From: Nitrospirota bacterium
GTDB lineage: Bacteria; Nitrospirota; Nitrospiria; Nitrospirales; Nitrospiraceae
DNA: 35,612 nt
NCBI GenBank assembly: GCA_013388555.1
Contig: JACAFD010000202.1
Location: 1-35,612, forward strand
Direction: 5' to 3'
A program made the position numbers and the translations under genes. Below the pieces are notes generated by a model. The model saw only the letters and a list, made by a program, of their open reading frames with translations, was not told where the DNA came from and made no database searches. This document shows positions 2,596 to 28,529 of the stretch, piece by piece; positions within the stretch are counted from its first letter, which is position 1; each line of letters begins with the position of its first letter.

Positions 2596-3711
2596 ATGGA
2601 CTCTTTTTCTGTAATGTCACTGACGATCAATAAAGGCACCTGCTACGCTGTGTTTGCGTACGATATCGGATGGTCGATCGATCTTGAGGACGTCAACCGC
2701 CGGATCACGGCAGACAGGGAGCGCAGCCGCCTCCGGCATAAGACGAGAGCGCCGCAATATTTCGAATACCGGCCGGCTCCGCTCCGCCTCATGCAAGAAG
2801 GAGGAAGCCTGGCGGTCGGCCAATATCAATCCAGCCCTACGGTCGAAGTGATGGTCTATGACTTCGGCGCCGTGACCATCACCTACCGGTTTATGCTGGA
2901 CGGTCCCTTCGAGGGCCTGCTCGAACTGAGCGAGGCGCTCTACGAGAACAAGTCCTTACTCACGGAATCGCGCAAGCGGGTAGAGCAGCTTGTTCAGGCG
3001 ATTCATCCGTCGATCGAACGGCCCAAGACCGCCAAAGAGGTGGAGGATTACATCATTTTCTCGATTGAATCCTATTCGCCGGAACAATCACTCCCGCCCT
3101 GGACAAGTCGGAAGACGGAACTGGCGCAGGTGCTTCGCGGCGAACGGATGCCGCTCGCAGACCAGGAAATTCAAGATGCCACGTCCTGCCGCATTTCGTA
3201 CGGAGTCGGAGACGCGGCACTCATCGATTGGCACTCGGCCGTGATCTTCGGCAAAGAGATGGACGACGTGCGAGCCGTGCTGGAATTTGCCAATGTAGAG
3301 CTCTTGGAAATGCGGATGCTCGACGAGCAGCTCGATACGGCGTTGGACGAGGGATACGCGGCACTTGCCCGAAAACCACGTCTGCTGCCGCTCCCTGGTT
3401 CACACGACAGGGACACCACTCAGATCGCGCAGCTCCAGGTCGACGGCGCGCTCCTCTTCGAGCGGGTGACGAACACTTTGAAACTCTTAGGGGACCAGTA
3501 CCTGGCCCGCGTCTATCGCCTCGCGTCGCAGCGTTTCCACCTCGAAGCCTGGGATGCGAGCATTCTGCGCAAGCTGGAGACGCTGGAAAGCATTTACAGC
3601 AAGATGTCGAACCGCGCGACCACCCGACGCATGGAAGTGCTTGAATGGATCATCATCGTCCTGATCGCCGTCTCGATCGCGGTGTCGTTCTTCCCAATGG
3701 GTGGGCACTGA
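2596..3711 (+). CDS. DUF155/RMD1-like protein with C-terminal membrane anchor
   Basis: This 371-residue protein begins with a CYAVFAYDIGWSIDL strand-like block and has a VMVYDFGAVTITYRF block near residue 90. Its middle is long and helical. It ends with a charged helix, LEWIIIVLIAVSIAVSF and a short tail. The layout and the LEW-III-VLI anchor match the DUF155/RMD1-Sif2 family (mitochondrial RMND1 in eukaryotes), whose bacterial role is unknown. The N-terminal YDIG and later YDFG pair looks like a duplicated motif. No strong ribosome binding site precedes the ATG at 2596, and an ATG at 2614 is a possible alternative. It converges with the next gene, leaving only 27 bases. Family assignment is by pattern and not certain. 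Confidence 0.65.
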   Translation: MDSFSVMSLTINKGTCYAVFAYDIGWSIDLEDVNRRITADRERSRLRHKTRAPQYFEYRPAPLRLMQEGGSLAVGQYQSSPTVEVMVYDFGAVTITYRFMLDGPFEGLLELSEALYENKSLLTESRKRVEQLVQAIHPSIERPKTAKEVEDYIIFSIESYSPEQSLPPWTSRKTELAQVLRGERMPLADQEIQDATSCRISYGVGDAALIDWHSAVIFGKEMDDVRAVLEFANVELLEMRMLDEQLDTALDEGYAALARKPRLLPLPGSHDRDTTQIAQLQVDGALLFERVTNTLKLLGDQYLARVYRLASQRFHLEAWDASILRKLETLESIYSKMSNRATTRRMEVLEWIIIVLIAVSIAVSFFPMGGH

Positions 3712-8506: not shown

Positions 8507-9169
8507 TCAACACTCGGCCGTCATGTGCCTGATGATCTTGCCTTCCACCAAATAGACAACGAGCTCAGCGATGTTCGTCGCATGGTCGGCGATCCGCTCG
8601 TAGTACTTGCCGATGAAGGCGAGGCGGGCCGCGCGCGTGATGGTTCTTGAATCTTCCAGCATGAATGAGACGAGTTCTCTGAAGAGTTGCTCCGTGAGGT
8701 CGTCCATAAAGGGGTCGTCCCGGCAGACTTTCCGTGCCAGTGCGGCGTCACGATTCACAAAGGCATCCAGGCACTCTTTAACCATCCGGATCGTCCACTC
8801 AGCCATTCTTGGAATATCGAGGTAGGGCTTCAGCTGGGGTTCTTCGTTCAACTCCATCGCCCGTTCGGCAATGTTTTCGGCCAAATCGCTTATTCGTTCG
8901 AGTTCTGGGGAGATCTTCATGGCCGTCGTAATTAATCGGAGGTCGCCGGCCGTCGGATGATGGAGCGCCAGCAAACGGAGGCATGTCTCGTCAATTTCGA
9001 GATCCAGCGCATTGATATATGAGTCGTTTCCGATGACGTGCATTGCCAGATTCGAATCGCGTTCGGTCAACGCTCGCAGGACGTCCTGCAATTGAGATTC
9101 GACAGAGCGCCCCATCAGCAAAAGTTTCTGCCTGAGATCGGTCAATTCGAGATCGAGATGTCGTTCCAC
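8507..9169 (-). CDS. phoU: PhoU, phosphate-signalling regulator
   Basis: The 220-residue product starts VERHLDLELTDLRQKLL, the usual opening of PhoU. It contains two three-helix halves with the family signatures SPELERISDLAENIAERA and FIGKYYERIADHATNIAE, which carry the metal-binding acidic residues. PhoU links the Pst transporter to the PhoR kinase and keeps the Pho regulon off when phosphate is plentiful. The GTG at 9169 is chosen over the longer frame (GTG at 9190) because GGAGG lies five bases before it and the length then matches the family. A small membrane-protein gene sits 44 bases upstream on the same strand. No pst or phoR gene is next to it, so its partners must be elsewhere. Confidence 0.93.
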   Translation of the reverse strand: MERHLDLELTDLRQKLLLMGRSVESQLQDVLRALTERDSNLAMHVIGNDSYINALDLEIDETCLRLLALHHPTAGDLRLITTAMKISPELERISDLAENIAERAMELNEEPQLKPYLDIPRMAEWTIRMVKECLDAFVNRDAALARKVCRDDPFMDDLTEQLFRELVSFMLEDSRTITRAARLAFIGKYYERIADHATNIAELVVYLVEGKIIRHMTAEC

Positions 9170-9213
9170 CGCCCCTCCGGTGAGAGTCACCCAAACCAGC
9201 CGATCACATGCTC

Positions 9214-10177: not shown

Positions 10178-11989
10178 TCATGGCGAAGTCTGCCTAGAGG
10201 ACTGCTGGCGAAGAATTTCATCCAGCCTGATTCGTGATCGCTCCCGGACAAGCTGCCGGTCATCTCTGGTACGGAGTGGGTCGGCGAAGGTCTGATCGGA
10301 TGGCGCGATCGGCGCGAGGGGAAACATGGATAAGGCAGAGCGTTTGGCGGCCGGCTTGTTTCTCCAGGGATTGTAGAGGGGATCGCCGACGAGCAGCATG
10401 CGCCAACTCACCCATCGGCTGGTCAGATAGTAGGATTCGACGAGCGAATACTGGCCGGTCATCAACAGCGCCGTGAACTCAAGTGGTTCGGGAAAGGTAT
10501 CCAGGTACGGTTCTCCGACAGATCCGAGTGTGGCGGTAATTCCACGTTCCAACGCATTCTTGCACCAGCCCGATTCCCCTGTCCTGTGGAGACTCACAGC
10601 TTCGGCGGAAGCCATGTGGTAGCCGATTGCGCCTGGCTGGAAGGTAAATGCGTCCTCGTATTGCCTGAGTCGATACCAGCCGATATAGAGCCCTACGTCC
10701 GGCGCCTCGCCCGGGCGATGGAATCGCGCTTCGGTATTTTCCAAGACCACTTTGTAGGAACTATGCTGCGTGATGAACGCGTGCAAATCCCGCAGGCTCT
10801 GGTCGTAGCGGCCGTAAGTATCGGATGGGGATTTAGCCTGCAACCCCCGCGCATCCAGGTACACTGTCCCAGCAAGCCCCTGCCGTTCCACCTCTATTGC
10901 GCGGTCCACCAAGCGCATGGCCGACTTGGCTGTCGGAGCATCGAGGCGGCTTACCATGAGGACCGGGAGTTCGCGCTGGGCTGGCCTTTCAGTACGTTTA
11001 AACGCATGGTGGAACGGATTGAGGCTGCGCCAGGATACGGGATAGTCACGTTGATCCCACCAAATCAGGCTCAGTTCGCTATCCACACTCGCGTCGGCCT
11101 GCTCGTCCGAGAGGAGATGTAACTCCATTGCGGCAAGCGCGAAGACACCGTAGAGTCCGTAGACCAGTTCGACCTGTCGATAGAGTTCAGCCCGCCTCTG
11201 GCGGAGAGGAAACTCCAACGATCCCAACAATTGTAATCCTTCCATCTGCTGAGCCCGCAGTTGTGCTTCTGCGTCAGGGCCTGAAGCGAGGCCCGGTTGG
11301 GGTAATTCATGTTGCAGCTGCGCAAGTCCGGCCAGTCCTTGATGACGCCGGATGATCGATTCCAGTTGCGTGTAGTCCTGAATATGTGCCGCAGGTTGAT
11401 GTTGCTGGGTCCGCTTGACCGCTTCCTGCACTGATTGGTCTACGTGGAAGAGGAACACGACATTCCGTTCATACGCTGTAACCCCCTGCTCTTGTTCGTT
11501 CTGTGGCTCGGAAGCGGATGGTGACGCGATTGTGCGCGCCTGGCGTTCGAGGTCGAACAGCTGCGATCTTGCCGCATCCAACCTGGCGCTTGCATCGCGG
11601 AGCGGGCCCTGTTCCTCCAACGTGAAAGTTGGAGATCCTACCCGAATCGGCACGCCATAAACCGTGACCAGAACACGGATCGTCCGGTGTAGCCCCTGCG
11701 CTTGCAATGTCTGACGAAGGGGCAAGACGAGTCGCTGTATATAGTCGTCCCGGGTGATCGTTTCATCGGACGGAAGATCCAGCTTGGCAATGTGTTCTAG
11801 AGGGATTGCCCGGCTGATCGCATAATGTTCCGCGACCAGGAGGCTCTCCCTGCTGTTGGCGTTGGCCACAATCATCACTTGATTAGCCGAGAGTTCAGCT
11901 TGGACTGGATGAGCGTTCCCCATAAAGGCGGCGACGAAAAGGACGACCCCTATAGCCGAACGTGTAACCGAAACCCGGGTGGTAACCAT
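10178..11989 (-). CDS. TIGR03790-family exported protein
   Basis: The 603-residue protein has a signal peptide (hydrophobic stretch ending HPVQA) and then the opening typical of the uncharacterised TIGR03790 family: VMIVANANSRESLLVAEHYAISRAIPLEHIAKLDLP. Later family-like blocks include YGVPIRV, LVSRLDAP-type and the GYHMASAEAVSLH to VGEPYLDTFPEP region near the C-terminus. A glutamine-rich, probably coiled middle (residues 150-270) interrupts the conserved parts. A GAGAGGGA stretch lies upstream of the ATG at 11989. Function in this family is unknown. It is divergent from the 5'-nucleotidase gene with a 262-base promoter region between. Confidence 0.8.
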   Translation of the reverse strand: MVTTRVSVTRSAIGVVLFVAAFMGNAHPVQAELSANQVMIVANANSRESLLVAEHYAISRAIPLEHIAKLDLPSDETITRDDYIQRLVLPLRQTLQAQGLHRTIRVLVTVYGVPIRVGSPTFTLEEQGPLRDASARLDAARSQLFDLERQARTIASPSASEPQNEQEQGVTAYERNVVFLFHVDQSVQEAVKRTQQHQPAAHIQDYTQLESIIRRHQGLAGLAQLQHELPQPGLASGPDAEAQLRAQQMEGLQLLGSLEFPLRQRRAELYRQVELVYGLYGVFALAAMELHLLSDEQADASVDSELSLIWWDQRDYPVSWRSLNPFHHAFKRTERPAQRELPVLMVSRLDAPTAKSAMRLVDRAIEVERQGLAGTVYLDARGLQAKSPSDTYGRYDQSLRDLHAFITQHSSYKVVLENTEARFHRPGEAPDVGLYIGWYRLRQYEDAFTFQPGAIGYHMASAEAVSLHRTGESGWCKNALERGITATLGSVGEPYLDTFPEPLEFTALLMTGQYSLVESYYLTSRWVSWRMLLVGDPLYNPWRNKPAAKRSALSMFPLAPIAPSDQTFADPLRTRDDRQLVRERSRIRLDEILRQQSSRQTSP

Positions 11990-12251: not shown

Positions 12252-14177
12252 ATGAGTTCGCGCATGAGCATCGACGGTATCATCCCGAAGCCCTTTGCCC
12301 TGCTCGCCGTCTTAGGCACACTGTATATGAACGGCGCCTGCCTCCTTCAACCGGCCTTGGCCGGAGCATCGGCCGAGCATCACTCCCACGAGTGGGACCG
12401 CGGCGACGAGGACGACGATACCATTGAGATGCACCAGGACGTTGGACGGCGGGTGGAATGGCGGACCCTCGAATTTCACAAGCGCGAGAAAGACTCGCTC
12501 CTCCATGTGCAGTTGCTCAGCATCAACGATTTCCACGGGCAGCTCTCGGTAGGCCGGCTGGTGGCGAACCGTCCGGTGGGAGGCGCGGCGGTCCTGGCCG
12601 CCTATCTCCAGGCCGCGCAGCAGGATCCGAATGACCCCGAACTATCCGACCGCACGTTTATCATCCATGCAGGCGATCACGTCGGCGCGACCCCGCCCGA
12701 GTCGGCCCTACTGCAGGATGAGCCTTCCATCGGTTTCCTCAACCTGCTGGCCAACCGCTATTGCCGCTTCAATGACCGAACAGACCGGCGGGATCGGTTG
12801 CGCGCTTGGGAGGTCGAAGAATCGAGGGACGACCGCCGCGACCGCAGGATGGATCCGAAATGCAATCTGGTCGGCACGCCGGGCAACCACGAGTTCGATG
12901 AGGGCAAAGACGAACTGATGCGCCTGCTGAATGGCGGCAACCACTCGACAGGACCATTCTTAGAGAATCCCTATCGAGGCGCGCGGTTCCCGTATGTCTC
13001 GGCTAACGTCGTCGTCGAGAGGACCGGTAAACCGATCCTTCCCCCTTTCGTCATCAAACAGGTCAATGGAGTTCGGCTCGCGTTCATCGGGGCGGTGCTC
13101 AAGCAGACCCCGACGATCGTCACGCCTACAGGTGTGGCCGGCTTGAAATTCCTGGATGAAGCGGACAGCATCAATCGCTATGTAAGGTGGCTGCGCCGGA
13201 AAGAGCGCATCCACACGTTCATCGTGTTGATTCATCAAGGTGGAACTCAGACATCCTATCAAGGCCCGACTCAGCCTGGCGGATTGATCAACGGCCAGGA
13301 TATCGTCAACATCGTCTCGCGCTTGGACGACGATGTGGATGTGGTCGTCTCCGGCCATGCCCATTCGTTCACAAACACCTTGCTCAAGAACCAGAACGGC
13401 GCGGAGATCCTCGTCACCCAGGCCTTCTCTTCAAGCACGGCTTATGGAGACATCGACCTCACAATCGACCGGAAAACCAACGACGTCGTCGCCAAGAGCG
13501 CCGCGATCGTCACGACGTTCGCCGATGCCGGTCCTGGCCTCACGCCGGACCCGGAGGTGGCGGCGGTGGTCGCGCAGACGGAAGCCAAAGTCGCCCCGCT
13601 CGTCAATCGGGTGATCGGCGAAGCCGCCGCCGCCCTGCTGCGCTCGGAAAGTCCCGCCGGCGAATCGGCCCTGGGTAATGTGATCGCCGATGCCCAACGA
13701 GCGGCCCTCGGCACGGACTTCGCCTTCATGAATCCCGGCGGCATCCGGGCCGATCTCTTGGCAGGTCCCATCACGTACGGCGCACTATTCACGGTACAAC
13801 CGTTCGGCAACAGCCTGGTCCAGATGACGTTAACTGGCCAGCAAATTTACGATCTGCTGAATCAACAGTGGGTCAATCAGCCGTTCCCTCGCACCTTAAA
13901 AACATCCGGCCTGACCTATACATGGGACAACAACCGGCCGATCGGGGATCGTATCGTCGAAGTGCGTCGTCATGGCGCCCCGATCGACCGGCAAGCACGC
14001 TTCTCCGTGACGGTCAACAATTTCATGGCGGCGGGAGGCGACAACTTCACGGTGTTGACCCAGGGACAGAATCAGATGGGTGGGCCGATCGACCTGGGTG
14101 CCTTGATTGCCTATATCCAGAGTCTCCCGCAACCGTTCTCCGCCGCCATCGAAGGACGGATTACGCGCCTCAACTAA
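12252..14177 (+). CDS. UshA-type 5'-nucleotidase / metallophosphatase
   Basis: The 641-residue protein has an N-terminal hydrophobic segment (residues 14-38) for export and then a calcineurin-like phosphatase domain. Its metal ligands are visible in order: DFH at 93-95, GDH at 141-143, GNHE near 219, LIHQGG and VSGHAHSF. The C-terminal 5_nucleotid_C domain follows with ESALGNVIADAQR, NPGGIRADL and the substrate-stacking region around NNFMAAGGDNF. The enzyme would hydrolyse periplasmic nucleotides to nucleosides and phosphate. A highly charged arginine- and aspartate-rich insertion of roughly 35 residues lies between the second and third metal motifs. The ATG at 12252 has no strong ribosome binding site, and ATG at 12264 is an alternative. 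A candidate Pho array precedes it. Confidence 0.92.
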   Translation: MSSRMSIDGIIPKPFALLAVLGTLYMNGACLLQPALAGASAEHHSHEWDRGDEDDDTIEMHQDVGRRVEWRTLEFHKREKDSLLHVQLLSINDFHGQLSVGRLVANRPVGGAAVLAAYLQAAQQDPNDPELSDRTFIIHAGDHVGATPPESALLQDEPSIGFLNLLANRYCRFNDRTDRRDRLRAWEVEESRDDRRDRRMDPKCNLVGTPGNHEFDEGKDELMRLLNGGNHSTGPFLENPYRGARFPYVSANVVVERTGKPILPPFVIKQVNGVRLAFIGAVLKQTPTIVTPTGVAGLKFLDEADSINRYVRWLRRKERIHTFIVLIHQGGTQTSYQGPTQPGGLINGQDIVNIVSRLDDDVDVVVSGHAHSFTNTLLKNQNGAEILVTQAFSSSTAYGDIDLTIDRKTNDVVAKSAAIVTTFADAGPGLTPDPEVAAVVAQTEAKVAPLVNRVIGEAAAALLRSESPAGESALGNVIADAQRAALGTDFAFMNPGGIRADLLAGPITYGALFTVQPFGNSLVQMTLTGQQIYDLLNQQWVNQPFPRTLKTSGLTYTWDNNRPIGDRIVEVRRHGAPIDRQARFSVTVNNFMAAGGDNFTVLTQGQNQMGGPIDLGALIAYIQSLPQPFSAAIEGRITRLN

Positions 14178-16938: not shown

Positions 16939-17715
16939 TTAACGGAGAAGCGATTGTGGAGAGAAGTTATTGCGCGGCGGGCCGGACATAGGCAGCTCTT
17001 TTAACAACCGTTCCGCTTCCGGTTTGAACTTACGCGCCCAGGTGTAGGGATAGTGCGGATGCTCCGCGTGGATCACGGCTTCGAGTTGCTTCTTCGCGTC
17101 CTCGATTCGATTCTGGTTCTTGTACAACTTGGCCAAGAGGAGACGCGCGTTGGTGAAGTTCCCGTCGGCAGCGATCGCCCGTTCGAGATATTCTTCGGCT
17201 TTTTTCTTGTCCCCGCCGAGGAACCATGGCAATTCCATCAAGAGCCCACCCATCATCTGTAATGCCTGAGCATGTGTCGGGTCGAGTTCGATGGCGCGAG
17301 CCACGTGCTGTTTGATTTCCTTCACCGTAAAGGCAGCCTTTGTCAGTCCCTTGATCCGTTCCGCGCTGCCGAGATTGGCTGCGTAGAGGAAATGCGCCTG
17401 CGCATTGGAATCTTGCAACCCTATCGCCCTCTCTGCGGCCTTGGCCCCTTCCTCGTAAGCCGACCGGCGGTTGCCATCATCCGTAAACAGATCGTCTGCC
17501 AAGTCCATGTAGACCTCGGCCAGTTCGACAAACACATCTGCGCTCACGTGTCCTCCGGCTATGACAGAGAGCAAACGTTGCAGGTCCGATTCGAGAGACT
17601 GAGGATAATTGGGAGGAATCGCATCCCGCGCCCCTGCGGCGTGCGAAACCGGCAGGCCGACAAGCCCGAACAGGAATAGGCCGGCGAGAAGCCCCCGCGA
17701 CGTCGCGCTCGCCAT
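16939..17715 (-). CDS. Exported TPR protein, last gene of the lipid-type operon
   Basis: The 258-residue protein has a signal peptide (hydrophobic residues 8-24 ending SHAA) and about four helical pairs that fit tetratricopeptide repeats. These include AHFLYAANLGSAERI, AIELDPTHAQALQMMGGLL and AIAADGNFTNARLLLAKLY. The overall pattern recalls TatT-type TRAP-transporter-associated TPR proteins, but I cannot confirm that. The start ATG shares one base with the upstream stop (TGATG), so translation is probably coupled to the Lgt homologue. The longer open frame starting at 17955 runs within that gene and is not used. It likely acts in the periplasm, scaffolding the envelope proteins of this operon. 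Confidence 0.75.
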   Translation of the reverse strand: MASATSRGLLAGLFLFGLVGLPVSHAAGARDAIPPNYPQSLESDLQRLLSVIAGGHVSADVFVELAEVYMDLADDLFTDDGNRRSAYEEGAKAAERAIGLQDSNAQAHFLYAANLGSAERIKGLTKAAFTVKEIKQHVARAIELDPTHAQALQMMGGLLMELPWFLGGDKKKAEEYLERAIAADGNFTNARLLLAKLYKNQNRIEDAKKQLEAVIHAEHPHYPYTWARKFKPEAERLLKELPMSGPPRNNFSPQSLLR

Positions 17716-18776
17716 CAGATTTGATCCCGAGCCACGGAGATGGCGAGGTGTGAGGCCGTCACTTTGCTCCGTCCCGTATAGAGGAACATCGCGACCCAGA
17801 TTAATTGCAGCGACAGGATGACGCCGGGATGCCAAAGCGTATGCAGGCCGAGTGCAAGTTCCGGAACGGAGGATTCGTGTTCGGAAACAAACAGCACGAT
17901 GCCGAGACCGTAGATGGCTCCGACCAGCGCCAAGATCTGATACGACGACATCCACCCCCCGCCGCGAAAATCAGCCCGTAGCATTTCTGAGACTGCCCGC
18001 CACACTTGCGTGAACGGCCAGACGACGACAAAGGCTGCCACGGCACGGCCTTCGAGAAACAGCGACAGCCCGAGCAGGCCGGCCGCGACAAAGAGCACAG
18101 CGGTAATCCCCTGTATGGGAATGACCGGCATCTTCTCCAGGCGCCCTTCGTACGCCGCTTTCTTCGTCGACCCCGCAAAAGAAAAATGATAGGTGCCGAA
18201 GAGTCGCGAAATCCACGAAGGTAATTCCGCAAGCGGTTTGCCGTAACAACAGCCGAAGCTGATGCAGCCAAGGCGTCCGGTTCCTTCTCCCAACGCATAG
18301 GCGATCGCCAAAATCGCCATCGCCGGAACGATCGGAATTCCGAGCACCACAGGCTGCTCCGCTGCCGCGTACACGGAATTGATACCGAACATGACCCACG
18401 GGGCGAGCACGACACCGACGAAGACCGCCCCGCCGACGGTAAAGGTGTTGGGCTTGCCCTCGACAAGACGGGCAACGATTTTCGCGGCTGGCACGGCGCA
18501 GACCAGCAGCAGCAGCACGACCCAGCTCGTGATCGCGAGCGGCACCTTCAGCGCGGCCATCAACACGAACACTGTCGCCACCGCCACGGTGACGCCGGTG
18601 GCGGTGAACAGGCCGTAGTATGTCAGATTGAACCCCGTCCACCAGCCGTTCGACTGGCGAGAGCGGGGAATTGCCGCGAGGATCTGCCATTCCTCCCGGG
18701 GCAATGTCCGGAATGCCCAGGCGAATAACCCGGCATAGACCGCGCCGAGCAGGCTGACGGCGAGCAGATTCGTCAT
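17715..18776 (-). CDS. Lgt-like diacylglyceryl transferase homologue
   Basis: The 353-residue protein is polytopic, with about seven hydrophobic segments. It carries the Lgt-family signatures in altered form: YYGL at 53-56, GRLGCISFGCCYG at 167-179 in place of GR.GNF.N, and RADFRGGGWMSSYQ at 267-280. True Lgt moves diacylglycerol from phosphatidylglycerol to prolipoproteins at the inner membrane. The Cys-rich signature loop marks a divergent subfamily whose substrate may differ. The start ATG overlaps the upstream decarboxylase stop (ATGA). Its neighbours, a phosphatidylserine decarboxylase homologue and a HAD phosphatase, fit a lipid-modification role. I infer family membership from motifs and keep the substrate open. 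Confidence 0.8.
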   Translation of the reverse strand: MTNLLAVSLLGAVYAGLFAWAFRTLPREEWQILAAIPRSRQSNGWWTGFNLTYYGLFTATGVTVAVATVFVLMAALKVPLAITSWVVLLLLVCAVPAAKIVARLVEGKPNTFTVGGAVFVGVVLAPWVMFGINSVYAAAEQPVVLGIPIVPAMAILAIAYALGEGTGRLGCISFGCCYGKPLAELPSWISRLFGTYHFSFAGSTKKAAYEGRLEKMPVIPIQGITAVLFVAAGLLGLSLFLEGRAVAAFVVVWPFTQVWRAVSEMLRADFRGGGWMSSYQILALVGAIYGLGIVLFVSEHESSVPELALGLHTLWHPGVILSLQLIWVAMFLYTGRSKVTASHLAISVARDQI

Positions 18777-19810
18777 CGGTCCTCCTGAGCCATGACACAG
18801 TCCCGACGGAAACCGATCGTCGAGCGGACCTTGACGTCGGTCTCGACCAGCGATCGGCCGAATCCGTTGGAGAATCGGCTTTCCACATCCGCGCGAGCCA
18901 TGTTCTGCATGAGGTCTTCACAAAAACCGACTCGACCTGATTGAAACACAGCGACGGTGGTGGAACTGCCGGGCCGATAGAGGCTCTTGGGTTGTCCCCT
19001 CCTCAGAAACATCCCGGCCGTAACGGGGAGCGGTTGCTCATACCGCCGCGCGCTGTAACATTGATCGATCCTGCCGATCATCAACGCCACGATCTCGATG
19101 AAGGCCACCAGGCCTACACCCGTGCCTTCCGGCACATCCGTGTCCACCACCGTCACCGTGCGGACGTTCTTAGAATAGGGCGTCCCGATCGCCACCACGG
19201 AACCCGGATTGCACGAATGGTAGCGTCCGTGCAGTTCATAGATGTCGCGCACCACTCCCGACACGGGCATGTGGTTATAGTGATATTTGTCGGGAGTCAG
19301 CCGGCAAATGGCGTAGTCCCCTCCCTGAAACGCCGTGAGCCACGCAGGGTGGTCCGAACCGAACAATTCTTCGAAGTCGAAGAATTTCCCCTTTAAAAAG
19401 AGCGACGACTGCGGAGCAAACGACCCCACGAGCATGCGTGCGTCGGCAGGAGCGACGACCCGGTCCGGTTCGTGGTCCATCGGCCTCGTCTCCCAGTATC
19501 GAATCTGGCGCTGGAACAGCTTGCGCGGGCTGTCCAGGCGTTCCGCCGACTCGATACATTCGCCGAGATCGACCCCGAGCTGGCGAACAAAGCGGTCGAT
19601 CCCCCACAACATCGACCCGAAGGGAAGGTCATAGTTCAAGAAGCCCAGAAGCTGTGAGGCGCGGGCCGACGTGACCGTGCGCAAAATCCAGGAGCGGTCT
19701 TCCCAGGGAGCAGCATAGACCAGGCGCAACAGCTGATCCGCATAAAGCGGTTCGGTAAAGACACGGCCCGACACCCGATCGATGTATTGATGGGACACCA
19801 TCGTCTTCAC
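18773..19810 (-). CDS. Phosphatidylserine decarboxylase homologue
   Basis: The product is about 345 residues. Its second half matches the Psd family: VAPADARMLVGSFAP (catalytic Asp), GGDYAICRLTPDKYHYNHMPVSG (catalytic His) and a GSST self-cleavage site at about residues 281-284. There the Ser would become the pyruvoyl group. All three expected catalytic residues are present, so it should process itself into two chains. The first 120 residues are a less familiar helical region. The usual role is conversion of phosphatidylserine to phosphatidylethanolamine at the membrane. I chose GTG at 19810 because it overlaps the upstream stop (GTGA) with GGAGG four bases before it; ATG at 19801 is possible. 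It may be a specialised copy, since a housekeeping psd could exist elsewhere. Confidence 0.88.
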   Translation of the reverse strand: MKTMVSHQYIDRVSGRVFTEPLYADQLLRLVYAAPWEDRSWILRTVTSARASQLLGFLNYDLPFGSMLWGIDRFVRQLGVDLGECIESAERLDSPRKLFQRQIRYWETRPMDHEPDRVVAPADARMLVGSFAPQSSLFLKGKFFDFEELFGSDHPAWLTAFQGGDYAICRLTPDKYHYNHMPVSGVVRDIYELHGRYHSCNPGSVVAIGTPYSKNVRTVTVVDTDVPEGTGVGLVAFIEIVALMIGRIDQCYSARRYEQPLPVTAGMFLRRGQPKSLYRPGSSTTVAVFQSGRVGFCEDLMQNMARADVESRFSNGFGRSLVETDVKVRSTIGFRRDCVMAQEDR

Positions 19811-22212
19811 GAGACCTCCAGGCATTCGACGGGCGCCACCTCGTCAAGATCCCGCTGGAGCACAATGAGCGCCATGTGGATGCATTGGCGGAGCTGCGCT
19901 TCATTGAGGGTCTCCGACAGAATACCGTCGCGCATCGACCGGAAAAACTCACTCGCGCTCCGTTGTCCGATGATTTCAGTGACCCGCTGGCGAGAGGCCG
20001 AGTTCCCCTCGGCATGTTCATTGTCGAGCCGGGAGAGGTCTTCCAGCAATACATCTATCGCCTCTGTGACGTGACGCCGCCGTAGCGCGCCTCGATAATA
20101 TTCCTCGGCGGACTCATTGAACTCCTCCGCAGACAGATCCATCGGGGAACGGGCTCCGCTCAATCCGAGAACGCCGGCGGTAAGTTTGCCGGCGACTCCG
20201 TGCGCTTCCGGCTCCGCCAGACGGCGCTGTACGCTCTCGATCAACGGTCCTGCGCCGAAGGCCTCCACCAGATCCGCCGCATCCTCCCGAAGGATGTCCA
20301 ACAACGCCTGCCGGTATTCCACCAGCCGAACACGCAGGTGCTCCCCATAGCGGCGACTCGGCCTGGTCTTCGCTGTTTTTGTCAGGATCCGGGCAAGCAA
20401 CCGATTGGGACCGTCTATCCGCACGTTGCAGGTATTCAATCCGAGAGCGGACGAGAATATGAATTGCCGGCGCTCGCTTTCGGTAGTCGGGTCATCCGGG
20501 ATGTCGACGTGCCGTACGACCCCCTCCGCGACATACTTGAACGCCAGCCCGGTGAGGAGCGCTTGCAACGTCGCCGCCTCGGCCATATCGATGAACGGAT
20601 CGGCGAATAGGCTATAGTGCCGGCCTTCGAACCCGGAAAAACCGATCACGCTCTGGCTCCGAAGTTTCAAGAGCAGATATAGCGACATCGACTCGTCGAA
20701 GATCCCCAATTGGGCCAGATCCCGCTTGAGTCTCTGTTCATTGCCCAGACACCCGTCGAGTGCGGGGCTCTGGTCTGTGCTCAATATGGCGACGAGATAG
20801 TCGATCAATCGGAAATCCGGCACGAAATCTCCCCTCAGCCGAAAGACGCGGCTGGTCAGCTTATCCAGCCATAATGGTCCGAGGGGGGTCATTGGCCGGC
20901 CGAAAACAGACAGGTCGGCCTTCTGTTTCCACCGCCTCCAGATCATCCGCAGATGGCCGTCGTCGAGTTCGTGCGGCAGGAATCCCAATGCCTTTTCAGG
21001 ATGGAAATCGCAGAAATCGAGTCGATAGGGCGCCGCGCTGTACGTGCCGACAAACAGCGGCAGGAAATGCTCCAAGATTTTCATGACAAGATCGCCGAGC
21101 ACCTTCTCATGCGCGGCGGTGAACTGCGACTCCGGGTCCGCCAGCAGCCGGGTCATCACCCTGCTGCCCAGGCTCACATGCGTCCCGTTATTGGCGAGGC
21201 TGATATTCGAGGTACTCGGCAGCACGACGAGGTTGCGCGTAATGATTCCAGCCTCGCGCAACTTGATCATGGCGTTGAGCTGGCTTCGAGACAATACTTG
21301 ATGGCAGAGATGCATATATCGATGCTTCTCCTCTCCCCGCTTCCAGCCGGACAGGCAGGGATTCATGAACATGTCCCGATAGAAGCTGTCGGAAAGCAGG
21401 CTGTTGAGTCGCTTTTGCCTGAGAGGCGGGTGCGGGGCGAAATAGATCATCGCCCGTTGCCCCATAGCCCGCAACCCGAACGACTCGTTGGCATACAGGA
21501 TGAGCAGGTGGGAGAGCAGATAACGTTTGACCATCTCGCCGGCCAACACCTTCCCCATTCCTGTGGCAGGCTGAAGCGCGGAGACATAAAAAGAAAACGT
21601 TTCAGGCGAACTGTTGTCGTTTAAGAAATGGTCTGAGAAGCGGCGGCCTGTGGCCCTGACCGATTGCGATGGGCATAATCCCGCGCTGACCGCCTGAATC
21701 AGAGAGAGCTTTAAGAGGTAGCTGATCGGCACGCGAAGACAGGATTCTCCTCGATGCTCCACGAAGAACTCTGCCGAATCCCTGCGCGCTTCACCCTGCA
21801 GATTTCCCTTGTCTGCCGATAAATCCCGTTTGAGGATCTCCCGTACATCGTTCGACAGCAGTCTGACAGGAATCCGGACCCAGGAGTTTTCCCAGATCCC
21901 CGTCGGGTTGTTTCGCAGCAGATCTCCCAACGCGTCAACGAGACGCGCCGGGCTCTCGCCGGCGGCAGCGCGACGTTGGAGATTCCGAAGGTAGTTCGAC
22001 TGCTGGATGACCAATGGCAGATCGACTGCGTCCGGTTGTCCTTCAACGGAGGCTTGGAGTTCCGTCTCCGAACCCGCTGTGATATCGTGGGCGGAAAACG
22101 GCAGGGCGGTGGGAAAGAACCGGTGAAGCAAATGAGCCTCGTCATGATCCGGTCTCCTCACCACAATTTGAGGCGGTACGAGCGCTAGATGACCTGCCAA
22201 GAGTTGCGACAT
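19807..22212 (-). CDS. Unrecognised 801-residue protein of the lipid-type operon
   Basis: This is the largest gene of the operon and I do not recognise its family. It has no signal peptide and no obvious membrane segment. The sequence is mixed helical, with conserved-looking blocks such as SNISLANNGTHVSLGSRV, YRLDFCDFHPEKALGFLPHE and SALGLNTCNVRIDGPNRLLAR. These suggest an enzyme-like core with Asp, His and Arg residues. The last 200 residues are charged and helical. The ATG at 22212 has GGAGG four bases upstream and overlaps the end of the HAD gene by 28 bases. Its stop overlaps the next start, so it is translated with the lipid enzymes. Calling it a lipid enzyme or its regulator would be guesswork. 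Confidence 0.75.
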   Translation of the reverse strand: MSQLLAGHLALVPPQIVVRRPDHDEAHLLHRFFPTALPFSAHDITAGSETELQASVEGQPDAVDLPLVIQQSNYLRNLQRRAAAGESPARLVDALGDLLRNNPTGIWENSWVRIPVRLLSNDVREILKRDLSADKGNLQGEARRDSAEFFVEHRGESCLRVPISYLLKLSLIQAVSAGLCPSQSVRATGRRFSDHFLNDNSSPETFSFYVSALQPATGMGKVLAGEMVKRYLLSHLLILYANESFGLRAMGQRAMIYFAPHPPLRQKRLNSLLSDSFYRDMFMNPCLSGWKRGEEKHRYMHLCHQVLSRSQLNAMIKLREAGIITRNLVVLPSTSNISLANNGTHVSLGSRVMTRLLADPESQFTAAHEKVLGDLVMKILEHFLPLFVGTYSAAPYRLDFCDFHPEKALGFLPHELDDGHLRMIWRRWKQKADLSVFGRPMTPLGPLWLDKLTSRVFRLRGDFVPDFRLIDYLVAILSTDQSPALDGCLGNEQRLKRDLAQLGIFDESMSLYLLLKLRSQSVIGFSGFEGRHYSLFADPFIDMAEAATLQALLTGLAFKYVAEGVVRHVDIPDDPTTESERRQFIFSSALGLNTCNVRIDGPNRLLARILTKTAKTRPSRRYGEHLRVRLVEYRQALLDILREDAADLVEAFGAGPLIESVQRRLAEPEAHGVAGKLTAGVLGLSGARSPMDLSAEEFNESAEEYYRGALRRRHVTEAIDVLLEDLSRLDNEHAEGNSASRQRVTEIIGQRSASEFFRSMRDGILSETLNEAQLRQCIHMALIVLQRDLDEVAPVECLEVS

Positions 22213-22991
22213 TGTGCCTCCGAATCCAGCCTGTCCATCTCCCATTCCGTGGACGACGGGACGCCGCGTGCCGGTCCTTGAACAACCGCCTCGGCAACGC
22301 GACCGGCTCTTCCCATCAAACGTTCTGCCACGAGCCCTAGATCGATCCTGTCCAAAGACGGAGCGACAAGATCGGCCAGCGCCAGCGCGTCTGGCGCTAC
22401 TGTCGTCGCCACGCCCAGACAGACCAGTCCTGCAGCTTTGGCTGCCTGAATTCCTTTAGGCGTATCTTCGATGGCGATACAATCATCTGTCGCAATCATC
22501 TGGCGTCTCATCAATGCGGCAAGACAGTGCACGTAGGGATCCGGAAACGGCTTTCCTCTTACAACATCCTGTGCGGCAGTCACATGTTCGAACACATCGA
22601 GCAGCCCGGCCTGATCGAGACAGAACTCGATTTCCTCCCGTAGAGCACAGGACGCGATCGCCAGGCGATAGCGCTCCGCCGCATCCAGCACGAACTGCTT
22701 CACAGCTTCAGGAATCATGCTGTCCGTTTTGAACGCCCTCAGCATACATCGGGACTTTCGAGCGACCAGCGCCTCAAGGTGCTCTGAGGAGACCGATCGG
22801 CCGTGAGCCTGATACACTGCCGAAAAGCAGGCATGATCAGTCAAGCCGATGTAACGCCGGAAATAGTCATCCCCGCCCAGGTGAAGCCCCTCTTCAGCCA
22901 GCACATGCTGAATCATGCGCATGTGCGTCGGCTCCGTGTCGGCGAGCACACCGTCAAAATCGAAGATGACCGCTTTGAGCTGTCTCCTCAT
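22185..22991 (-). CDS. HAD-superfamily phosphatase, beta-phosphoglucomutase-like
   Basis: The 268-residue protein shows the HAD motifs: motif I DFDGVLADTEP with both catalytic Asp, motif II SCAL, motif III KPFPDPYVH and motif IV EDTPKGIQAAKAAG. The helical cap between motifs I and II is of the class seen in phosphoglycolate phosphatase and beta-phosphoglucomutase. It would hydrolyse or move a phosphate on a small sugar or lipid head-group-like substrate, not identifiable from sequence. It is first in the five-gene operon. The ATG at 22991 is preferred over a TTG three codons earlier. The last 30 residues extend past the HAD core. Confidence 0.88.
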   Translation of the reverse strand: MRRQLKAVIFDFDGVLADTEPTHMRMIQHVLAEEGLHLGGDDYFRRYIGLTDHACFSAVYQAHGRSVSSEHLEALVARKSRCMLRAFKTDSMIPEAVKQFVLDAAERYRLAIASCALREEIEFCLDQAGLLDVFEHVTAAQDVVRGKPFPDPYVHCLAALMRRQMIATDDCIAIEDTPKGIQAAKAAGLVCLGVATTVAPDALALADLVAPSLDRIDLGLVAERLMGRAGRVAEAVVQGPARGVPSSTEWEMDRLDSEAQCRNSWQVI

Positions 22992-23231: not shown

Positions 23232-23549
23232 TTACGCGGCAATTGTTTCGCTGATCTGCCCTTTTCGTGGGCGACGGGCTCGAGTCATGCCTCGCTTTTG
23301 CACCTGAGTATCATACGTTTTCTGCAGACCCATCCAGTAATCAGGCGTCGTATGGCGGATCTCTCCAAGACGCGCTGCAATGGGGCGCGTGATCATGCGG
23401 TTTCCATGAATCAGGTCTCGAATGTGTCGCCAGGGTACTCGAGTGCAGAGTGACAGCCCAGCTACACTGAATGGCGGCTCGGACGCCTTCATGTAGACTT
23501 CCAGAAGAACCTCGCCCGGATGGATCGGTGTCGTTCGTAAATTCGGCAT
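23232..23549 (-). CDS. HigA-like antitoxin, apparently orphan
   Basis: The 105-residue protein has the HigA layout: an N-terminal PIHPGEVLLEVYM block, a helix-turn-helix (SVAGLSLCTRVPWRHIRDLI), RPIAARLGEIRHTTPDYWMGLQ and the YD near the tail. HigA binds its own promoter and neutralises the HigB mRNA-cleaving toxin. AGGAGG five bases before the ATG at 23549 supports the start. TATAAA at about 17 bases upstream may be a -10. HigB normally precedes higA, but the 221 bases upstream hold no such frame and the downstream side is also empty. It is therefore an orphan or domesticated regulator. Confidence 0.82.
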   Translation of the reverse strand: MPNLRTTPIHPGEVLLEVYMKASEPPFSVAGLSLCTRVPWRHIRDLIHGNRMITRPIAARLGEIRHTTPDYWMGLQKTYDTQVQKRGMTRARRPRKGQISETIAA

Positions 23550-23670
23550 AGCATCCTCCTTATTTATAGTACGAAGGATACGGAAGGATGCCGGCAAACA
23601 CCACTAGGTAAGTTACTAGGTGAACGGGCACTGAGCTGGGGGCATTGCCACTGATGTTCACATCGGTTGG

Positions 23671-24236: not shown

Positions 24237-24944
24237 TTATGCTCGCAGCTTGTAGCCCACGCCGCGCACCGTCACGATGATTTTTGGCATGGCAGGGTTG
24301 AGTTCGATCTTTTGTCGGAGGGAATGGATATGGACATCGAGGGCATGCTCTTCTAAGGCAAAGCCGTCACCCCAGACCCTGTTGAGCATTTCTTGACGAG
24401 TGAAGGCCCGGCTGGGTGATTCGAGAAACTGGCGGAGGATCTGAAATTCTTTTGGCGTGAGGTTGACAATTCTGCCGTTGACGGAAACTTCGTGACGGTC
24501 CAGGTCCATGCGCAGCGACCCGGCACTGTAGTAATGAGTTGATTCGCGACGGGGTTCCCGTCGCCGCAATATGGCCCGCGCGCGGGCCAACAACTCACGA
24601 GGACTCGGGTTGCAGACGACGAGATCGATGTCCCGATCGTAATCTTGAATACAGTCGTCATCCGAGCAGGCGATGGCTCGGTCCTGCACCGCAACGATAG
24701 GAGCAGCGATCATCGTACGCAGCCGGCGGAGATCGATAAAGGTGCTCTGTTCACGATCGACGATGATCAGCGCAGGCATTGACGTCTTTGCCGCCGAATA
24801 GGCAGCCGATTCGGTCGTCACGACCGTGCCCTGATAACCGTTCGCCTCGAACGTCTTTTTGAGCGATTGCGCGAACAGCTCAGCCTGCATGAAGATGAGA
24901 ATAGTATTACGCAGTCCTGTCATCGTAGATGGAGTGTCCAACAT
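24237..24944 (-). CDS. OmpR/PhoB-class regulator with degenerate receiver
   Basis: The 235-residue protein has an N-terminal receiver-like domain and a well-preserved winged-helix output domain: LTPKEFQILRQFL, RVWGDGF, DVHIHSLRQKIE and VRGVGYKLRA at the end. This output type binds tandem direct repeats. In the receiver, Asp63 (VDRE) sits at the phosphoacceptor position. The acidic pair that holds magnesium is replaced by FMQAE, and the conserved Lys is replaced by Asn112. It probably does not use ordinary aspartyl phosphorylation. No kinase gene is adjacent. It is divergent from pstS, with arrays facing both ways between them, so it is the natural candidate for the local Pho activator. No strong ribosome binding site marks the ATG at 24944; ATG at 24923 is possible. 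Confidence 0.88.
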   Translation of the reverse strand: MLDTPSTMTGLRNTILIFMQAELFAQSLKKTFEANGYQGTVVTTESAAYSAAKTSMPALIIVDREQSTFIDLRRLRTMIAAPIVAVQDRAIACSDDDCIQDYDRDIDLVVCNPSPRELLARARAILRRREPRRESTHYYSAGSLRMDLDRHEVSVNGRIVNLTPKEFQILRQFLESPSRAFTRQEMLNRVWGDGFALEEHALDVHIHSLRQKIELNPAMPKIIVTVRGVGYKLRA

Positions 24945-24981
24945 CGCGGCGTGATAGTAAACCCGACAAGAAAAACTGGTA

Positions 24982-25010
24982 GTTATGCTGGTGTTAAATG
25001 CCAGTAAACT
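24982..25010 (-). promoter_or_regulatory. Pho-box-like array facing the regulator gene
   Basis: On the minus strand AGTTTAC (25010-25004), ATTTAAC (24999-24993) and GCATAAC (24988-24982) recur with an exact 11-bp period. They lie about 40 bases before the regulator start, consistent with autoregulation. No good -10 is seen at 10 bases. Confidence 0.5.
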
Positions 25011-25033: not shown

Positions 25034-25062
25034 AGTTAACACAGGGTTAACAGTCCATTAAC
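25034..25062 (+). promoter_or_regulatory. Triple Pho-box-like array facing pstS
   Basis: AGTTAAC (25034), GGTTAAC (25045) and CATTAAC (25056) recur with an exact 11-bp period. This is the strictest array in the window. TTAACA separated by five bases is also the Bacillus PhoP box consensus. The pstS start is about 90 bases downstream. TACGCT at 25084 is a possible -10. Confidence 0.6.
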
Positions 25063-25150
25063 CTACAAGAAACATGGAGCCCGTACGCTTACCGTAGTTC
25101 TGAGTAGAGACCCTGTCAAAAACCTTGAGCCCCTAGCCATTGAGATACGC

Positions 25151-26200
25151 GTGCAACTCCGTCAATCACTTCAAGCAATTCTCTTTCGAACCCTCATTCC
25201 GCTCCTCATCGCCCTTGCTTTGACAGTTCCTGCTCAGGCCCAGGTCAAGCCTGAACTCGATCACGGGATTTCTCCCTATCAGCGCGTCAATGACCTGAGC
25301 GGCCCACTTTCCGTCGCCGGGTCGGAAACCATGAAGCCCTTGACAGAATCCTGGTCAGCCGGCCTCCAACAGAGGTATCCCGGTCTTAAAATCAAAGTGG
25401 AAAGCTCCGGTTCCGAGGCAGGAATGGCTGCACTGCTCGAGGGAAAAGCCCAGATTGTTGCGTTGCCCCGGCGCATGACGCAGCAGGAGGTCGTTGAATT
25501 CAAGCGGGAATTCGGGTATGAACCAACTGAGGTTCCCGTTGCCGTAGACGCACTCGCTGTCGTCGTGCACAAAGATAATCCCATCGAAGGGCTGACTCTC
25601 GCCCAGCTAGATGCGATGTTCTCTAAAGAGCGCCGCCGAGGATGGCCCTACCCCGTCAACACATGGGGAGATGTACCTGTCCTTGAGGAAGGATGGACCG
25701 ACGCTCCTATTCATCTCTATGGCAGGAATAGCAATTCCGCCACAGCATCGTTCTTCAAAGAGCATGTGTTGAATGGAGCAGCCCTCAAGAACACCATGAC
25801 GGCCGTGCCCGGCTCTGCAACAGCGGCCCTGGAGGTGACCATTGACCGGTTCGGGGTTGGATTTAGCAGAATCGGCTATCAAACATCGGAGATCCGGCCT
25901 GTTCCTCTCGCCTCGGTCGAAGGGGGCCGGTATATCCAACCGAACTTCCAGACCGCCATGGATGGCTCATACCCTTTGAGGCGCAATATCTATCTGTATC
26001 TGAATAAACCTCCCCAAATGGGCGCCTCCTCTCCTCTGGCTGAGTATGTCAAGTTTGCGCTCAGCCGACAGGGCCAACAGATTGTATTAAATCACGGCTA
26101 CTATCCCCTCCCGACCACCGAGCTGAATCGACTAGCCATGATGTGGAAGACTCCTCTCCGAACGTCGGCTGCTGAAGAACCAGGCAAAGCCCTCAACTAG
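25151..26200 (+). CDS. pstS: PstS-family phosphate-binding protein
   Basis: The 349-residue protein has a signal peptide (hydrophobic stretch ending AQAQ) and a periplasmic PBP_like_2 domain. VAGSETMKPLTESW and VESSGSEAGMAALLEG form the first ligand loops, and GRNSNSATASFF forms the second. ALPRRMTQQE and GFSRIGYQ match conserved positions. It should capture phosphate in the periplasm. The usual PstS partners PstC, PstA and PstB do not follow; a lipoprotein and a porin do. It therefore feeds a distant transporter or acts as a sensor or scavenger. The GTG start at 25151 has a weak ribosome binding site. There is no lipobox, unlike the ankyrin-fused relative at 5610. Confidence 0.88.
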   Translation: MQLRQSLQAILFRTLIPLLIALALTVPAQAQVKPELDHGISPYQRVNDLSGPLSVAGSETMKPLTESWSAGLQQRYPGLKIKVESSGSEAGMAALLEGKAQIVALPRRMTQQEVVEFKREFGYEPTEVPVAVDALAVVVHKDNPIEGLTLAQLDAMFSKERRRGWPYPVNTWGDVPVLEEGWTDAPIHLYGRNSNSATASFFKEHVLNGAALKNTMTAVPGSATAALEVTIDRFGVGFSRIGYQTSEIRPVPLASVEGGRYIQPNFQTAMDGSYPLRRNIYLYLNKPPQMGASSPLAEYVKFALSRQGQQIVLNHGYYPLPTTELNRLAMMWKTPLRTSAAEEPGKALN

Positions 26201-27060: not shown

Positions 27061-28500
27061 CTAGAAACTCCACTGAAGCTGGAAACGAATTAGGTTGCCG
27101 GTTTGAAGTTGGTAAGGAGTCTGGAGGCAGGAGACACCGATGGCAATGGGATCAGTACAGGTGGCCGGGCTAAAAGAGGAGTTCGACGAGGTTCGCTGTG
27201 TCCATGCATAGGCAACGGTCAACTCAAGGGCGCGATTGAACTGATACTCGAGTCCCAGTTCTGTTTCCCGCACCGACTGTTGGGGTGCATTACTCTGAAG
27301 CTTCTGGCCGCCAAAATATTCCTGCCAGCGTACATAGGGGAAGACGTTCTGGCAATAGGTATCGCATTTATAATTGTAATACAGTTGCACATAGCCTCCG
27401 CGCACGGAACCGAGTTCCACCTCCGTCCGAGCGTTATTCAGCTGAGGCCCTCGCCCGATCATGTACTCCGCCTGAAGGCCGAACGGTTGCGGGAAGACGA
27501 TCAGATTCCACAAGACCCGTTCGTCGAGATAGTCCCCATCGTTCGTAACAAGCGGAGAGGCCGGAAGTCCGTTCGACGACGTTATATTGGTAGGCACGAC
27601 GGGAGATGTCGATACGCCGACTTGTCCCGTGTAGGCGTCCATCCCGACCTGGACGATTTGACCGTTGGAAAACTCATGGGGATAGGCCGAATGGAATATC
27701 ACGTGCTTATTTTTGTTCACATCTTGCTGATCGATTCCCTGACCGTTGTAGACCCCGATGCCGAGCATGCCATAGTCACCAGATCCTTTGAGGCCGCTCT
27801 CGACCAACCGACGGAATCGCTCGCGCACCACGGTCGGCGCGTAGTAGAGAAAGACACCCAAATTGCGCTCATTCGGGACTGCACTAAAAGTCGCATCATT
27901 GCGGTCGAATGCCAGCCGGTTTTGGCTTGACTGCAGGGTCTCGAATCCGAAGGGGATCTTCGACTGCCCGGGCCGGATCCGCCATTCTTTATTCTCTGTG
28001 AGAAAGAGATCTGCATAGGCATCTCGCAGGACCACGGTGCCTTCATTATTATTAATGTTGTCTCCCTGATTGTTGACGACGCCCGCGAATTCACTCTGCA
28101 GATAGACAAATACACGATCGTGAGGCTGGCCGCTCACAATGAGGCGGGCGCGGCGCATAAAAAACTCGTTATTCTTGACGATGGAGCGGTCCCCGGGAGC
28201 AGTCAGGAATTCATTGTCCGGAGAGTTGTTATAACGGAACTGGGTGTAGCCCCTGACGCTGATCTTTTCATACCATCGTTCACGCAGGGGGACATCGCCG
28301 ATCCCCCGGTTTTCTTGCATGATTTTTGCTTCCCGCTTTTCTTCTTCTGCCTTCAGCTTGACCCACTGCTCGGTGGTGATTTGCTTGTTTTCCAGCAAGA
28401 GATCCTCAAGTTGCCCAGCCAGGGCCGGCGCCCAGGAGGCAAACAACGCCCCCAGAGCCAATATCCCTATCCGTGCCAATCCTCGGGAAGCCGTCTTCAT
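27061..28500 (-). CDS. OprO/OprP-type phosphate-selective porin homologue
   Basis: The 479-residue protein has a signal peptide (ending PALAG) and a short coiled N-terminal segment (LLENKQITTEQWVKLKAEEEKREAK). The remainder is a beta-barrel with alternating strands such as ISVRGYTQFRYN, RARLIVSGQPHDRVFVYLQSEF and ELTVAYAWTQ. It ends in Phe, as outer-membrane barrels do. The pattern fits the OprO/OprP (porin_O_P) family, which forms phosphate- or polyphosphate-selective channels in Pseudomonas. Selectivity here is inferred from neighbours, pstS and the regulator. ATG at 28500 is preferred over the ATG at 28515. The promoter at 28530-28563 has two GTAAC boxes and a -10 in the phoA-like arrangement. 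Confidence 0.82.
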   Translation of the reverse strand: MKTASRGLARIGILALGALFASWAPALAGQLEDLLLENKQITTEQWVKLKAEEEKREAKIMQENRGIGDVPLRERWYEKISVRGYTQFRYNNSPDNEFLTAPGDRSIVKNNEFFMRRARLIVSGQPHDRVFVYLQSEFAGVVNNQGDNINNNEGTVVLRDAYADLFLTENKEWRIRPGQSKIPFGFETLQSSQNRLAFDRNDATFSAVPNERNLGVFLYYAPTVVRERFRRLVESGLKGSGDYGMLGIGVYNGQGIDQQDVNKNKHVIFHSAYPHEFSNGQIVQVGMDAYTGQVGVSTSPVVPTNITSSNGLPASPLVTNDGDYLDERVLWNLIVFPQPFGLQAEYMIGRGPQLNNARTEVELGSVRGGYVQLYYNYKCDTYCQNVFPYVRWQEYFGGQKLQSNAPQQSVRETELGLEYQFNRALELTVAYAWTQRTSSNSSFSPATCTDPIAIGVSCLQTPYQLQTGNLIRFQLQWSF

Positions 28501-28529
28501 TGAATCTCTTTCCATATCGGCATCGAAGG

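Follow-up and report, generated by a model that had tools for sequence, protein, structure and literature searches.

Where phosphate is scarce, bacteria swap phospholipids for phosphorus-free lipids through a handful of known routes. Ornithine-lipid synthesis by OlsF/OlsBA is a Pho-regulated, phosphorus-free amino-lipid pathway in which acyltransferases N-acylate ornithine; OlsF of V. cholerae makes its phosphorus-free lipid under PhoB control (PMC12186959). Betaine-lipid (DGTS) synthesis by BtaA/BtaB uses S-adenosylmethionine and a methyltransferase and brings an amino-acid-derived head group onto a diacylglyceryl backbone under phosphate starvation. Glycolipid remodelling by PlcP/Agt replaces phospholipids under phosphate limitation through phospholipase and glycosyltransferase chemistry. 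Sulfate reducers swap phospholipids under phosphate limitation via agt and olsF homologues, and D. alaskensis, which has an agt homologue, requires an OlsF homologue to form ornithine lipid under this limitation (PMC5193443).

The stretch of DNA analysed here (the window, 35,612 nucleotides in full) belongs to a genome of 3.5 Mb in 327 contigs that is 99.5% complete. On its minus strand, positions 16939-22991 hold an operon of five genes overlapping end to end, listed here in gene order:

22185..22991, minus strand: HAD phosphatase (Pfam HAD_2, E 1.5e-27)
19807..22212, minus strand: P801, a soluble protein of about 801 residues (801 counted from the ATG at 22212), core gene 1, no Pfam match
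18773..19810, minus strand: PSD-like pyruvoyl decarboxylase, core gene 2 (PF02666 PS_Dcarbxylase, 117 bits, E 8.6e-34)
17715..18776, minus strand: LGT-like membrane protein, core gene 3 (PF01790, 34 bits, E 2e-8)
16939..17715, minus strand: TPR protein with a hydrophobic N-terminus and predicted signal peptide (TPR_19, E 1.5e-9)

An earlier note on this DNA had described five overlapping genes, and all four junctions were confirmed in the sequence: HAD and P801 overlap by 28 bp, followed by GTGA (P801/PSD), ATGA (PSD/LGT), and TGATG (LGT/TPR). A gene for a HigA-family antitoxin (23232-23597, minus strand; TIGR02607, 2.9e-13) lies just 5' of the operon.

Homologues of P801 with 46-61% identity were found in two phyla, and Desulfosarcina alkanivorans was the single named organism among the matches. 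In the phylum of the window, 396 genomes were sampled and 20 had P801 (a remnant in one case). Its spread was patchy: the window's genus is represented by 32 genomes, and P801 occurred in the window's genome alone. PSD-like and LGT-like genes followed P801 in the same order and on the same strand in all 14 window-phylum relatives compared and at the Desulfosarcina locus; in the window's phylum, each intact P801 locus with sufficient flank had both genes with the order kept. In an exhaustive test of 395 genomes of the Desulfosarcina phylum, P801, triad-type PSD, and triad-type LGT were each found in 44 genomes (a 45th P801 match was left out as a chance fragment), and 43 genomes had all three (Fisher p 3e-55). 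In each of these 43 genomes a single contig carried the triad on one strand, P801 first, then PSD and then LGT, separated by gaps with medians of 53 and 61 bp; in the two exceptions to the full triad the contigs end exactly at that point. Inter-locus distances of the three proteins agreed in a mirror-tree comparison (r 0.80-0.87), an agreement to which shared species history contributes. No description of the triad was found in the open-access literature (subscription papers lay outside the search), and the passages of PMC5193443 that were searched hold no mention of it. The triad is a real and conserved module, apparently not yet described. The pairing of two lipid-enzyme relatives with an 801-residue protein, from which the earlier note had suggested an unreported pathway, recurs beyond this strain, in many genomes of two phyla.

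What is conserved is the three-gene core and not all five genes of the operon; HAD and TPR are lineage-specific additions to it. HAD was located 5' of P801 in every locus of the window's family (f1), and none was found at triad loci of families f3 and f29 or of the Desulfosarcina phylum. TPR was located downstream of LGT in the window's family and the related family f3 (10 of the 14 window-phylum loci compared). The 20 Desulfosarcina-phylum loci compared had the identical triad without HAD or TPR. The neighbours outside the triad were not conserved across the two phyla, and no transporter or biosynthetic genes recurred beside it in the neighbourhoods compared. The core can be lost as one block, since locus L161 (G060 C58, ~5720) carries a deletion scar in which P801 residues 37-150 lie 4 bp from LGT residues 303-347, with PSD gone and TPR kept. 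In locus L074 (G623), PSD and LGT are separated by the insertion of a 735-aa gene and an 817-aa PHP-glycosyltransferase family-4 (PHP-GT4) protein; members of this PHP-GT4 family were also observed near the triad in L027, L039, and L076. In two assemblies, G264 (C21:33714-34436) and G769 (C34:84318-85205), the LGT-like gene is interrupted by an in-frame stop codon (TAG, TGA), from either decay or sequencing error.

The PSD-like protein scored 117.4 bits against PF02666, above the gathering score of 22, and stayed below the NCBIfam equivalog cut-offs (114.9 vs 371 and 77.5 vs 111.75 bits). All 16 aligned sequences share, without variation, the catalytic Asp and His of the family (D128 and H182) and its Gly-Ser self-cleavage serine (S288). 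The extended N-terminal half, previously regarded as atypical, is not unique, as the NCBIfam PRK00723 alignment covers residues 13 to 319. The protein resembles PRK00723-type phosphatidylserine decarboxylase in its catalytic Asp-His-Ser and N-terminal extension but differs in falling far below the equivalog cut-offs, in being a second copy beside canonical Psd, and in having a Pho-type promoter. In a profile search of the PDB, E. coli Psd (7cnw/6l06) was the best match (1e-16), followed by PsiD-type L-tryptophan decarboxylases (2e-6 to 8e-4). Judging from the chemistry of the family, the substrate likely carries an alpha-amino acid group.

In prolipoprotein diacylglyceryl transferase (Lgt), phosphatidylglycerol is held by arginines, and these are fully conserved in the LGT-like protein. 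Y26, R143, G154, and R239, and also H103 and N146, are essential in E. coli Lgt, and natural variants with N146C/E151C or H103Y/W/F exist (PMC13251419). The LGT-like protein scored above the gathering score of PF01790 (34.3 vs 24.9 bits) and below the NCBIfam equivalog cut-off (21.1 vs 334 bits), and its profile matched canonical Lgt, with Cys-type Lgts included, over the full length (E 1.9e-8). Like Lgt, it has the same fold family and membrane topology, invariant Y54, R168, G179, and R260 (the equivalents of E. coli Y26, R143, G154, and R239), and a kept E243 equivalent. Unlike Lgt, it is 60-80 residues longer, is below the equivalog cut-off, always occurs beside a canonical Lgt, and has H103 replaced by V120 and N146 by C171; the H103 equivalent in most LGT-like members is V/I/L/A-like, not H/Y/W. 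The window protein contains the loop GRLGC...GCCYG, which the earlier note had regarded as atypical. The loop by itself is no sign of new chemistry: a natural Cys at N146/E151 has been reported (PMC13251419), so it is a known natural variant and not unprecedented. In addition, two genomes have a third, separate Lgt-like gene of the Cys type, GRIGCFLAGCCFG, away from the triad (L149 and L150; G360 C223 and G121 C1; family f29).

The window's genome has a second Psd on contig C178, which is stronger at 148 bits; its canonical Lgt (268 bits) is on C90. Canonical Psd and Lgt were likewise present beside the triad copies in 17 further triad genomes, with no exception among the triad genomes examined, so that the triad Psd and Lgt are, as had been supposed, not simple housekeeping copies.

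Searches of Pfam, NCBIfam, PADLOC, PHROGs, and PDB with P801, singly and as a family, gave no match, the PDB searches by sequence and by profile yielding chance-level matches alone, and no P801 was found in viral contigs, phages, or plasmids. A defence-system protein was rejected since PADLOC gave no match, and a glutamine-synthetase-like ligase (NNGTH motif) was rejected since hhalign against a purpose-built profile gave a probability of 0.1. AF2 on P801 from two sequences reached a pLDDT of 35. About 120 residues are invariant among 22 P801 sequences and no transmembrane segment is predicted, features that suggest that P801 is an enzyme; the first ~46 residues are not conserved. The triad gives this family of ~800-residue proteins a first functional context.

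Since several triad neighbourhoods looked phosphate-related, with Ppx-, Ppk-, CHAD-, PhoR-, and PhoB-like genes read from the sequence, the promoters were examined. Scanning for Pho boxes with a matrix of the E. coli style gave scores that were mostly at shuffle level. On the coding strand upstream of P801, a TTAACA direct repeat with an 11-bp period was found in most lineages, and its tandem signal peaked at period 11 (and 22) only. In a leave-one-out analysis, the median score was 11.6 for triad promoters and 2.5 for the 419 upstream regions that served as controls (p 3e-10). pstS promoters from these genomes, unseen in training, were also recognized by the triad-trained matrix, with a median of 11.1 vs 3.0 (p 8e-11). 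Conversely, an unseeded pstS-trained motif peaked at period 11 and scored triads at 8.0 vs 1.1 (p 8e-9), a shift of the whole distribution in which 4 of 31 triads were above the controls' 95th percentile. Canonical psd promoters scored 0.5 and have no triad-type box. Of 30 genomes, 9 had a pstS gene no more than 25 kb from the triad, where 0.74 were expected (P 2e-8); in the other 21 it was distant or on another contig. Among the 11 triad genomes with a PF13444 gene, 4 had an OlsF-like gene within the same 25 kb (0.19 expected, P 3e-5). From the promoter boxes, the triad family is predicted to be mostly under phosphate-starvation (Pho) control. This phosphate link was absent from the earlier note and is new here.

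The window itself is a phosphate-acquisition island, with two PstS-like genes among its contents and the following features:

8507..9190, minus strand: PhoU (PF01895, 6.7e-45)
12252..14177, plus strand: 5'-nucleotidase family protein (5_nucleotid_C, 6.2e-45)
24237..24944, minus strand: PhoB/OmpR-type response regulator, divergent from pstS (Trans_reg_C, 5.2e-25; TIGR02154 PhoB, 3e-35, below cut-off)
25036..25063, plus strand: triple direct repeat TTAACAcagggTTAACAgtccaTTAACC, resembling a Pho box, upstream of pstS (18.1 with the triad-trained matrix)
25151..26200, plus strand: PstS-like phosphate-binding protein (PBP_like_2, 2.1e-35; TIGR02136, 5.2e-56, below the curated cut-off)
27061..28515, minus strand: phosphate-selective porin O/P family protein (PF07396, 7.3e-34)

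A further box at 24980-24997, with a score of 13.3, serves the gene of the PhoB-type regulator. No box above the threshold was found before HAD or P801 of the window's own operon, the nearest boxes being those of pstS and the regulator gene. Therefore, Pho control of the window copy rests on its relatives and its location. Most HAD-bearing relatives likewise have no box; an exception is G033, with a score of 20.2 between HAD and P801.

We consider it somewhat probable (about 0.55) that P801, PSD, and LGT constitute a Pho-regulated module that remodels membrane lipids under phosphate starvation. For this reading, co-inheritance, gene order, promoter signature, neighbourhood, and residue conservation were computed, and the steps of the mechanism are those that we infer. 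The LGT-like protein would move the diacylglyceryl group of phosphatidylglycerol to a non-phosphate acceptor, which P801 would make or tailor (finish), and would release glycerol phosphate, whose phosphate could be recovered, possibly with the help of the HAD phosphatase where present. The PSD-like protein would decarboxylate an alpha-amino-acid head group, before or after the diacylglyceryl transfer. The product, perhaps a phosphorus-free amino lipid, would be an amine-bearing diacylglyceryl lipid by which the phosphate of phospholipids is spared. From the lipid or lipoprotein modification pathway suggested in the earlier note, the conserved combination of lipid enzymes distinct from the housekeeping copies stands, and an amine lipid is a possible product of the triad; neither the grouping of all five genes nor the emphasis on the Cys loop held up. 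A cysteine-type version seems rather doubtful: the diacylglyceryl group of phosphatidylglycerol would be placed on a small thiol amino acid (e.g. cysteine) and PSD-like decarboxylation would yield a diacylglyceryl thioether amine. This analogue of phosphatidylethanolamine, free of phosphate, would be a new class of phosphorus-free lipid, with P801 founding a new enzyme family. The most explicit form of the lipid idea, in which decarboxylation of S-diacylglyceryl-cysteine gives a cysteamine lipid, is no more than a hypothesis.

The main rival to the lipid module is stress-specific synthesis of lipoproteins and phosphatidylethanolamine, in which the envelope is assembled under phosphate stress and no new lipid arises; PSD-like would make phosphatidylethanolamine, LGT-like would lipidate particular lipoproteins (e.g. 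for phosphate uptake), and P801 would be accessory. This would agree with the core residues that both enzymes keep from their families, with Pho regulation and pst proximity, and with the existence of natural N146C Lgts, one of which, that of L. interrogans, partly complements E. coli (PMC13251419). However, two positions essential in E. coli, H103 and N146 (PMC13251419), are mostly V/I/L/A-like and Cys, respectively, in LGT-like proteins, a canonical Lgt is always present, and the strict tie among Psd, Lgt, and P801 would be left without a reason. We regard this explanation as unlikely. It is improbable that PSD-like, in the manner of PsiD-type enzymes, decarboxylates a small conjugate or an amino acid in free form and that P801 and LGT-like convert the resulting amine to a small molecule with a lipid attached, or to a natural product for secretion, and not to a bulk membrane lipid. 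The matches of its profile to L-tryptophan decarboxylases of the PSD superfamily fit this, but the similarity to E. coli Psd is far stronger, no transporter or biosynthetic genes recur beside the triad, and Pho regulation and the olsF neighbours indicate membrane lipids.

Lgt chemistry releases glycerol-1-phosphate, and in one family the first gene of the operon encodes a HAD phosphatase, as would suit a module that dismantles phospholipids for phosphate recovery, in which diacylglyceryl transfer would serve salvage and the remaining lipid would be incidental; since most triad loci have no HAD and a decarboxylase would be superfluous for salvage, we find this quite improbable. Overlapping genes alone are common in compact bacterial genomes, but the perfect co-occurrence and order in two phyla, across which the outside neighbours are not conserved, refute chance neighbours or a housekeeping cluster lacking functional unity, to which we assign a negligible probability.

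The role proposed for the lipid module is like that of the three known routes, whereas its proteins are different: Pfam and NCBIfam scans of the triad enzymes gave relatives of Psd and Lgt alone and no homology to Ols, Bta, or Agt/PlcP. No triad protein matches the acyltransferases of ornithine-lipid synthesis, although olsF-like genes are near the triad in several genomes; the triad has no homologue of BtaA/BtaB; and it has no glycosyltransferase of its own, though PHP-GT4 sits inside the triad of L074. The triad as a simple replacement for ornithine lipids was rejected since its presence showed no anti-correlation with that of OlsB/OlsF (11/40 vs 5/40, p 0.16). The triad occurs in ~11% of the sampled Desulfosarcina-phylum genomes, sulfate reducers included; within the window's phylum, several lineages have it. 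A further phosphorus-free lipid route, if true, might account for unidentified sediment lipids.

Three other genes of the window were observed. The 801-residue product of 5610-8015 (plus strand) is an unusual fusion of many ankyrin repeats with a PstS-like substrate-binding domain (TIGR02136 at 7053-7862), and 10178-11989 (minus strand) encodes a TIGR03790 family protein (E 8e-74). A 371-aa protein with no Pfam match is encoded at 2596-3711 (plus strand), and genes for its 66-69% identical homologues adjoin HAD, divergently, in the triad loci of genus g17.
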